Part shown: piece after piece, positions 51,677 to 54,652 of the stretch
Numbering within the stretch: position 1 is the stretch's first letter
Layout of the letters: each line of letters opens with the position of its first letter
Assembly: GCF_018882085.1 (NCBI RefSeq)
Contig: NZ_JACVPB010000001.1
Location: 124,001 to 188,000 of the forward strand
DNA length: 64,000 nucleotides
Origin: Polynucleobacter sp. AP-Reno-20A-A9
Lineage (GTDB): Bacteria; Pseudomonadota; Gammaproteobacteria; Burkholderiales; Burkholderiaceae
Direction of reading: 5' to 3'
Translations under genes and position numbers: made by a program
The notes under the pieces: model-generated
Told to the model about the DNA's origin: nothing
Seen by the model: the letters and a program-made list of their open reading frames with translations, nothing else
Database searches by the model: none

Positions 51677-52771
51677 ATGTCTTTGAAATGTGGCATCGTC
51701 GGCCTGCCTAACGTCGGCAAATCTACCCTCTTTAATGCGCTTACCAAGGCTGGAATCGCAGCGGAAAACTATCCTTTCTGCACGATTGAGCCTAATGTGG
51801 GCGTTGTTGAGGTTCCTGACCCCCGTCTAGCCGCCTTGGCTGAGATCGTGAAGCCTGAGCGCATCCTGCCTGCAGCAGTCGAATTTGTCGATATTGCTGG
51901 TTTGGTGGCTGGCGCCTCAAAAGGTGAGGGCCTTGGTAATCAGTTTTTAGCGAATATTCGTGAAACAGACGCCATTACCCATGTCGTCCGGTGTTTTGAG
52001 GATCCTAACGTTATTCACGTTGCTGGAAAAATTGATCCCATTGCAGATATTGGTGTAATTGATACCGAATTGGCTTTATCGGACTTGGCGACGGTTGAGA
52101 AAACCCTGAATCGCTCAAGTAAGGCCGCTAAGTCTGGCAATGATAAAGAGGCTGCTGCCTTGGTTGCTGTTCTGACTAAAGTTCAGACTCATCTAGATTC
52201 TGCTTTGCCAGTGCGCAGCTTGAATCTTAGTGACGACGAAAAATTATTGATTAAACCGTTGTGTTTAATCACCGCCAAGCCTGCGATGTATGTTGCGAAC
52301 GTTAAAGAAGATGGCTTCTCAAACAATCCGCACCTCGAGGCTGTGAAGCAACATGCTGCAAAAGAAAATGCACCGGTCGTTGCGGTATGCGCTGCGATTG
52401 AAGCAGAGATCGCCGACTTAGAAGAAGCAGACAAGATTGAATTCTTGGCTGATCTAGGTATGGAAGAGCCAGGTTTGGATCGCGTGATTCGTGCAGGGTA
52501 CTCATTACTCGGTTTGCAAACGTATTTCACCGCCGGTGTTAAAGAGGTTCGCGCTTGGACTATTCATGTTGGTGATACAGCGCCTCAAGCTGCTGGCGTG
52601 ATTCATACAGACTTTGAGCGTGGCTTTATTCGTGCTCAGACAATCTCCTACGAAGATTTTGTGCAATTCAAGGGGGAGTCTGGCGCCAAGGAAGCCGGCA
52701 AGATGCGCGCTGAAGGCAAGGAATACGTTGTTAAAGATGGAGATGTATTGAACTTCTTGTTTAACGTCTAA
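51677..52771 (+). CDS. ychF: Redox-regulated ATPase YchF
   Basis: YchF is an Obg-related, ribosome-associated P-loop ATPase. The 364 residues have the P-loop [16 protein letters not shown], switch [22 protein letters not shown], the altered NxxE-type base-recognition region that favours ATP, a coiled-coil insert and a C-terminal TGS domain with [28 protein letters not shown] and [16 protein letters not shown]. Followed by a clear terminator. Confidence 0.96.
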
Positions 52772-52841: not shown

Positions 52842-53192
52842 TTATGAAGCTTTTGCTGCCTTTTCTAAACATTTAGAAATTTCTTCATAGCGCTTTAGAG
52901 CAATCTTGGTAGGCAATACTTCTTTTTTGCGACCATCAGCATTTGCAGCCATTTTGATGTAACCCAAGGCGCTGAGATTTTTGAGGCGACCATGTAGCGT
53001 CGCTTGTGAGCCAAGATCGGAAATGGAGATCAGATCACCAACCAAAATTGCCTGCTTTGCATGGGCGCAGGAAACAATTTTATCGAGCAAACTCTCTTCG
53101 ATGCAATCAAGTTTTTTCCCTGGATTGATGCGATCGAGAGCATCAATTAAGTTGAGGAACTTAATATAGGATGACGGTTTAGTAGATGACAT
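52842..53192 (-). CDS. MarR-like winged-helix regulator (predicted)
   Basis: A 116-residue protein not recognised by name. The middle (about 45-105) looks like a winged helix-turn-helix: AILVGDLISISDLGSQATLH as helix-turn-helix, GRLKNLSALGYIKMAANADG as recognition helix plus wing start, and the basic wing RKKEVLPTKIALKRY resembles the MarR DxRxK wing. The N-terminus SYIKFLNLIDALDRI is a likely dimerisation helix. It is divergent from a membrane-protein gene, with a 16-bp palindrome between them, suggesting an autoregulator of that pair. MarR-like is inference from pattern. Confidence 0.6.
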   Translation of the reverse strand: MSSTKPSSYIKFLNLIDALDRINPGKKLDCIEESLLDKIVSCAHAKQAILVGDLISISDLGSQATLHGRLKNLSALGYIKMAANADGRKKEVLPTKIALKRYEEISKCLEKAAKAS

Positions 53193-53258
53193 ATTTAGTA
53201 TTTATTTGTATTGGCTCTAAGGCTAGTGTTAGTGTATTCCCTTGGTCTGATTTTGGCA

Positions 53259-53274
53259 ATTGATGCGCATCAAT
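53259..53274. promoter_or_regulatory. 16-bp perfect palindrome (candidate operator)
   Basis: The string ATTGATGC followed by GCATCAAT is a perfect inverted repeat in the 106-bp gap between the divergent regulator (52842-53192) and the membrane protein (53299-53868). Length and symmetry fit the site of a MarR-type dimer. It is 24 bp upstream of the membrane-protein ATG and 66 bp upstream of the regulator ATG. Confidence 0.5.
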
Positions 53275-53298
53275 AAAAATTAATCCATACTAAAAACA

Positions 53299-53868
53299 AT
53301 GTCTAAATTATTCGCAATCTCTTCGGAATGGATTTTTGGCTGTGCCATTAGTGCGATAGCGTACACACTTCTTTTTTATTGCAATGGCTGGCTTACCAAC
53401 GGTATTACTTTTGGCTTAGGGGTAAGTTGGATTTATCTTCCTGCTGGCCTGCGCTTATTTTTGACATTGATTTTTGGTTTGCCTGGCGCCATTGGAATTG
53501 CTATAGCCTCATTTTTAATTAGCTATTACGGTGATTTCCCGCACGACTTGACTGTATGTATTGGGGTTGGATTAATTTCAGGGTTTGCACCTTACCTGGC
53601 TAGATTTTTTGTTTTTAGCAATCTTCGCCTTGAGTCAGACTTAAGTAATCTCAACTTCCCCAAACTCATTGCATGTATTTTGATTTATTCCCTGCTTTCA
53701 GCAGGCTTGCATCAGCGGTGGTTTGCTACGATGACCCTGGAAGATACGGGTAGCGTGAATCACTTCCTGGTGATGTTTATTGGTGATGTTCTTGGCTCAT
53801 TCCTACTCATTTCTTTGATCAAATACTGCTTAGATCTATTGCGAAAGATTAGGGAAACAGCTGGCTAA
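53299..53868 (+). CDS. Integral membrane protein, MASE1-like, function unknown
   Basis: The 189 residues have about five to six hydrophobic segments and resemble the MASE1-type sensory membrane domain without any attached signalling domain: [20 protein letters not shown] near 40, [17 protein letters not shown], a small Gly-rich [20 protein letters not shown], and a final helix [20 protein letters not shown]. The YLPAGLR motif is typical of betaproteobacterial hypothetical proteins of this kind. The 3' end overlaps convergent trpC by 20 bp. Function is not known; the divergent regulator may control it. Confidence 0.6.
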
Positions 53869-54652
53869 GGGCTGCGCCTGGATCAGCGGCGCGCATAAAT
53901 GCTTCCCCAACCAGGAATGCGTTGATTTGATTGTTGCGCATGAGCTCTACATCAGCGCGACTCAAGATGCCAGACTCTGTTACTAAGGTTTTATTGTCTG
54001 GAACCATAGACATTAGAGAGAGGGTGGTTTGCAGTGTGACCTCAAAGGTTTTGAGGTTGCGATTGTTAATGCCAAGTAATGGTGTCTTGAGCTCTAGCGC
54101 TTGCTCTAATTCTGGTGCGTTATGAACTTCGACTAAAACATCTAGACCTAATTCATGGGCACAGGCCTCAAGCTCTTTCATTTGATTTAATTCTAGGCAA
54201 GCCACGATGAGCAAGATTGCATCAGCGCCAATTGCACGAGCTTCATAAACTTGATAAGGGTCTATGGTGAAGTCTTTGCGTAATACTGGGATATTGCATG
54301 CGGATCGAGCTTCTTGCAGATAGGCATTGCAGCCTTGAAAGTAATCTATATCGGTTAACACTGACAAACATGCGGCGCCATGCTGTTCGTAGGACTGGGC
54401 AATACTTGCTGGTACGAAGCTCTCGCGCAAGATACCTTTGCTTGGGCTTGCCTTTTTGATTTCAGTGATGACTCCTGCCTTACCAGCAGAAATCTTGTTC
54501 TCAATAGCCTGAATAAAGCCTCTAGGCTTGAGAGAGGCATTTTGATTATTGGCTTCAGCTTGCTCACGTTGATTGGCAAGCGACATTTTCTGCAGACAGT
54601 TAGCCACTTCAATTTTTTTGGTCGCAACAATTTTATCGAGGATATCGCTCAT
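53849..54652 (-). CDS. trpC: Indole-3-glycerol phosphate synthase
   Basis: TrpC closes the indole ring in tryptophan synthesis. The 267-residue monofunctional TIM barrel begins [16 protein letters not shown], followed by the signature [11 protein letters not shown]-type motif (here [16 protein letters not shown]), [46 protein letters not shown] and [13 protein letters not shown]. trpD lies 10 bp upstream on the minus strand. No TrpF fusion is present. Confidence 0.96.

Follow-up and report, generated by a model that had tools for sequence, protein, structure and literature searches.

The R-M locus

The window, a stretch of 64,000 nucleotides from Polynucleobacter sp. AP-Reno-20A-A9, was found to carry a gene for a short regulator (R) and a gene for a small membrane protein (M), divergent across a gap of 106 bp (Table 1). 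Both ORFs are present as the original prediction had placed them. We take the flanking ORFs, from their sequences, to be a ychF-like GTPase gene on the left and a trpC-like gene on the right; the latter is convergent with M and overlaps its 3′ end by 20 bases. The flawless palindrome that had been reported in the gap, ATTGATGCGCATCAAT, is exact, and the chance of a perfect 16-bp palindrome in 106 bp is ∼0.0014 (arithmetic, equal base composition).

Table 1. Genes and intergenic features of the R-M locus, with positions in the window
Feature	Position	Strand	Basis or remarks
ychF-like GTPase gene (left flank)	51677..52771	+	ORF
R gene, 116-aa regulator, predicted MarR-like winged helix	52842..53192	-	ORF
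Imperfect inverted repeat ATTGGC-TCTAAG-GCTAGT	53210..53227		Matches ATTAGC-N6-GCTAAT at 10/12; covers the predicted start point of R
Predicted R promoter	53231..53259	-	-35 TTGCCA 53259-53254, 17-nt spacer, -10 TACACT 53236-53231
Perfect 16-bp palindrome ATTGATGCGCATCAAT	53259..53274		Exact in sequence
Candidate FNR box TTGAT-N4-ATCAA, core of the palindrome	53260-53273		Centre 53266.5; 10/10 arm bases
Putative M -10 CATACT	53286..53291	+	Conserved block in alignment
M gene, 189-aa membrane protein, half-MASE1-like	53299..53868	+	ORF
trpC-like gene (right flank)	53849..54652	-	ORF

The regulator R

The window's R matched no Pfam and no NCBIfam family at E ≤ 1, and no curated MarR model was reached. 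By profile it matched MarR chains, the best being HosA (7.5e-6), and a profile search gave MarR_2 matches at E ≤ 0.1 for 19 of 31 members of the R family. The structure model of R (pLDDT 88.8) matched MarR structures, with a Foldseek E of 3.8e-4 to MepR. Together, the MarR_2 matches of its relatives and the MarR-type predicted fold agree with the earlier description of R as MarR-like. R is accordingly named here a MarR-like winged-helix protein on its modelled fold, and was not assigned to the MarR family because the window protein itself matches no curated model. With MarR family members (MepR, HosA, SlyA) it shares the predicted winged-helix fold and a gene divergent from that of a membrane protein; it differs from them in its shortness (116 residues) and in having no curated family match.

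The eleven closest relatives of R that carry a name (L118-L128) are 90-98% identical to it and all from Polynucleobacter, and a motif of the GSQATLHGRLK type is conserved among its close relatives. In G002, one gene (L094:3402-4328) joins an R-like domain to a GAF domain.

Linkage of R and M

Among 61 relatives, 39 encode an R-family and 37 an M-family protein, with further R-M pairs at other loci. A survey of 300 genomes of the order gave R in 28, M in 24 and both in 23; outside the genus, the same survey gave R in 24, M in 20 and both in 19. The hypergeometric P of the co-occurrence was 1e-28, with kinship ignored. Within the 300 genomes, 20 of 28 M genes lie at most 1 kb from an R gene, divergent or tandem, in five families. 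Around the other 8 M matches R is missing within 1 kb, and for six from the whole contig; solitary R genes and solitary M genes both occur, so the pairing is strong and not absolute.

R and M are thus a genuine, conserved and uncharacterised pair, as had been proposed for two proteins without known role: 23 of the 24 genomes with M also hold R. No publication was recognised as treating the pair in the open-licence literature. The proposal that the two genes form a self-contained module stands in part. The pair is real, but control through the gap very probably involves one global regulator and perhaps a two-component system as well, as set out below. The result is an uncharacterised regulator/membrane pair that is conserved across five families of one bacterial order.

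The ychF-linked R gene is kept in G016, G023 and G017 (L020, L021, L045), whereas the M gene next to it is gone from the first two and carries an in-frame stop in the third.

An inverted repeat upstream of R and a candidate two-component regulon

Upstream regions of R were compared in the best 80 of 286 R loci, which include at least one paralogous locus (L197); M lies divergent beside R in 74 of these 80. The imperfect repeat over the predicted start point of R was equalled in 0.8% of shuffles. Repeats scoring at least 10/12 lie just upstream of R in 39 of the best 80 of 286 loci, against 0.6% expected per locus. The exact form, ATTAGC-N6-GCTAAT, occurs at 114 sites in 61 genus genomes and at 5 for the reversed pattern.

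From the matches listed, 73 distinct sites were read at 70 loci. A FixJ-like response regulator with receiver and GerE domains has such a site 69-75 nt ahead of its coding start in 22 genomes (22 sites). Another 18 sites, in 18 genomes, precede a gene for an alkyl-sulfatase and usually have a histidine kinase gene at their opposite end; 3 sites are next to R. Genomes with the response regulator hold a mean of 2.5 sites (n = 28) versus 0.56 in those without it (n = 9; P = 0.0004), and genomes with a ychF-linked R hold 2.04 (n = 23) versus 2.25 without (n = 12; P = 0.53); two genomes with a partial R were left out of the second comparison, and genomes are not independent in either P. Among 20 genomes picked from 37 by regulator status, 10 have a close sulfatase, and its promoter was read in 9 of them (G003 left out). 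A perfect repeat was present in 6 of 6 with the regulator and none in G002, G011 and G015, the last of which encodes a 44% relative of the regulator. G002 and G011 keep both R and the sulfatase, and neither kinase nor response regulator was found there. Kinase (E ≤ 1e-69) and regulator occur together in 11 of 13 kinase-bearing genomes and in 0 of the 7 others of this set, whose choice by regulator status makes any P only a guide.

These counts favour the response regulator over R as the probable binder of ATTAGC-N6-GCTAAT, and the kinase, the FixJ-like regulator and the repeat form a candidate for an undescribed two-component regulon. The best-placed alternative is that the repeat at 53210-53227 is the operator of R, with R repressing its own gene and the other copies forming its regulon. 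It is the commonest repeat just upstream of R, and it is kept in G016 (12/12), G023 (10/12) and G028 (12/12; genome 78% complete), where no response-regulator ortholog was found; its score at the R locus is alike in genomes with the regulator (mean 9.9/12, 17 genomes) and without it (9.8, 6 genomes). However, the number of sites across the genus tracks the response regulator and not R, 22 of the 73 sites read lie before the response regulator and 18 before the sulfatase against 3 by R, and the sulfatase promoters of G002 and G011 have no motif although R is there. We therefore consider self-repression by R through this repeat unlikely, though it is the strongest of the competing explanations.

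In the window's genome the membrane histidine kinase lies at G000:C38:199000-203500 (L271) and the FixJ-like regulator at G000:C40:45836-46459 (L280). Both were undetected in G002, G011, G016, G017, G023 and G033.

The membrane protein M

The window's M gave a chance-level Pfam match alone (E1-E2_ATPase, E 0.14) and no match to PF05231 (MASE1). PF05231 was matched at E ≤ 0.1 by 7 of 25 aligned M members (best 4.4e-8); coordinates read for two members place the match in approximately the first half of the profile, and bit scores of 24.0 (L077) and 17.0 (L055) fall below the curated cut-off of 29.8. MASE1 domains are given 290-300 residues and ten segments in the excerpted text of one source (PMC6510439). 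Against a working size for MASE1 of about 290-300 residues and 8-10 transmembrane segments, M has 189 residues, and its model (pLDDT 92.7) has six helices of at least 12 residues. Stand-alone MASE1 proteins have already been noted in print, in a passage of PMC3718329.

Judged from these remote matches, M appears to be related to MASE1 and to lack an output domain. The original prediction of a protein resembling MASE1 agrees with this; the likeness is remote, and the window's own M is unmatched. With MASE1 (PF05231; DgcE, YfgF), M shares weak profile similarity in some of its relatives. It differs from MASE1 in its shorter chain, in its six longer helices, in having no output domain and in having a separate DNA-binding protein as partner.

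No solved structure was found to match M by sequence. Alignment of the M model with VIA-align returned ECF-type transporter chains at ranks 1-19 (Z 9.3-13.6, next row 8.5), a range that helical models may attain without kinship; identity to these chains is 7-17% and the Foldseek E is 0.1. M could on this ground be the S-component of an ECF vitamin or metal transporter, with R as its repressor, its predicted fold resembling that of ECF S-components (ThiT, RibU). Against this, EcfT/CbiQ (PF02361) is absent from all 23 genus genomes searched, including that of the window; PF02361 was matched in 2 of 37 genomes searched, and 10 of 14 control genomes were positive. With low identity, a poor Foldseek value and Z scores that unrelated helical models reach, such an S-component is improbable, and a complete ECF transporter was rejected, its T-component being missing in all 23; M may still be a solitary carrier. 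M is called half-MASE1-like on the partial PF05231 matches of its relatives, its predicted fold being S-component-like and the T-component missing in 23 of 23 genus genomes.

A gene for a BLUF blue-light sensor lies directly after M in G001 (L085:5086-5472). A link of the pair to light through this gene was dropped, as it rests on one case.

The palindrome as a probable site of oxygen-sensing FNR

The core of the palindrome is TTGAT-N4-ATCAA, the FNR site as given in a passage of PMC5398030. The window's genome has 17 copies of the exact pattern and 3 of the reversed control. Among 15 of the 17 boxes that were read, 8 lie within ORFs, so that some are chance matches, and 7 between genes; with one mismatch allowed, the window holds 4 boxes versus 4.4 expected, which is no enrichment. 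Two of the boxes lie after hemN and before an ompW-like gene, and a c-type cytochrome gene and a sodB-like gene have one box each in front of them (all these names but hemN come from reading the translations). Two Crp/FNR-type proteins are encoded in the genome. One has C13, C16, C22, C115 and the motif ETVSR, with its gene beside a ccoG-like gene; the other has C40, C43, C49, C142 and ETLSR. We take the N-terminal cysteines and the E..SR motif of both to mark oxygen-sensing FNR.

A box was scored at an R locus when at least 9/10 arm bases lay within 130 nt of R. Boxes were present in 17 of the best 80 of 286 loci, all 66-79 nt from the R start codon, against an expectation of 1.3% per locus, or about one locus of 80 (mononucleotide shuffles); a TTGAC variant also occurs among these 80 loci. 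The arms are invariant in 18 aligned sequences save for the inner T/C and A/G, and the spacer is free. On an R+M tree (74 tips, midpoint-rooted), 3 changes account for the distribution of the box, whereas 500 shuffles of the labels needed 15.6 on average and never fewer than 12; the box is therefore inherited. Among the best 80 of 286 loci, 63 have no box, nor has any of the 16 R-M pairs read outside the genus (15 and a second pair in G236), of which the best reached 8/10 arm bases. R and M also persist where it is missing. The box is thus a clade trait, a clade-specific input to a wider R-M pair, and control by FNR would lie outside the core function of the pair because the box is missing in 63 of 80 loci.

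The palindrome is very probably a docking site of the oxygen sensor FNR rather than of R, and the sequence evidence for an FNR site as such is good. The original prediction had taken it for the operator of R; on that reading an R dimer binds it and controls both divergent genes. A length of 16 bp suits MarR operators, R has a MarR-like predicted fold and the site lies between divergent genes. The R loci and extra-genus pairs that have no palindrome speak against this, its absence beside orthologous pairs being the outcome named beforehand as refuting the operator. The sequence is the FNR consensus and recurs at genes other than R (the ompW-like gene), in a genome with FNR genes; at the R locus it keeps a constant distance from the -10 position of R, as for a class II activator site. 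Binding by R here is very improbable. Alternatively, the box could match the FNR consensus by chance and be functionless at this locus. The boxes inside ORFs and the 3 reversed matches point that way, but this is highly unlikely given the conserved arms with variable spacer, the narrow position in 17 loci and the inheritance on the R+M tree.

Predicted promoters and proposed working

The predicted promoter of R scored 9/12 and is weak alone, because the region holds 3 promoter-like sites where 1.6 are expected in shuffles. The FNR box abuts its -35, and the box centre lies at approximately -42.5 when counted from the weak predicted -10 (class II, -41.5). The predicted -10 is 23 nt from the box, and the stretch between them is ungapped in all 18 aligned rows, with the -10 hexamer itself variable. 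On the other side, the box centre lies at approximately -31 of the putative M promoter, i.e. over its -35 region. A passage of PMC3718329 gives yfgF, a MASE1 gene, an FNR box of the TTGAT--ATCAA or TTGAC--ATCAA type at -41.5, for which class II activation was proposed. On its predicted -10, the R promoter would resemble the E. coli/Salmonella yfgF class II promoter in having a TTGAT/TTGAC box near -41.5 with a -10 below it and a link to MASE1. Unlike in yfgF, the class II geometry would serve the gene of the regulator, and the half-MASE1-like gene lies across the box from it; YfgF carries GGDEF and EAL domains.

The reading that we consider probable combines an FNR box, with class II activation of R and lowering of M, a conserved R-M module and a second repeat that serves the kinase/regulator pair. 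At low oxygen, the [4Fe-4S] regulator FNR would bind the palindrome as an FNR/Anr-type box. Bound FNR would activate the leftward R promoter from the class II position and, lying over the -35 of the rightward promoter, would probably lower M. Most likely M is a small protein that senses or carries something and R its partner regulator, which would set the expression of M, or of a few genes, accordingly. The kinase/response-regulator pair would probably add a second input at R. A guessed new operator thereby gives way to a testable oxygen input.

More tentatively, and with a good deal of doubt, R and M may be a new kind of two-protein signalling system, in which M, as a half-MASE1 membrane receptor whose pocket is S-component-like, passes its signal to a free regulator of MarR-like kind or tethers it. 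The pair would then be a swappable module across the order, with promoter inputs (FNR, kinase/regulator, other repeats) exchanged by clade. If true, R-M would be MASE1 sensing with its output domain as a separate gene. MASE1 sensing is poorly understood, and a natural stand-alone half-domain paired with a DNA-binding protein would offer a simple setting for studying it.

The putative -10 of M ends 7 nt before the ATG; M mRNA would therefore be almost leaderless.

Other repeats upstream of R

The genus presents a case of promoter rewiring, in which the same gene pair and position have inputs that differ by clade. In another clade, the position of the box is taken by two or three 11-bp direct repeats of the CTTGTAYGCAA type, which lie over the -35 of M and ∼60-100 nt upstream of R (L012, L014, L017, L172 and similar loci). 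Exact copies of the 11-bp pattern were seen in 4 of 61 genomes, a single one in each, always at R+M loci. The CTTGT-type repeats are, we presume, similar to those of LitR/CarH; a LitR/CarH-like reading was set aside, as no wider regulon was seen, all four places holding R and M. At the distant R loci L022, L187, L189 and L193, a GGTGTACACC palindrome lies upstream of R and replaces both motifs, and L194 carries the same palindrome with one change.
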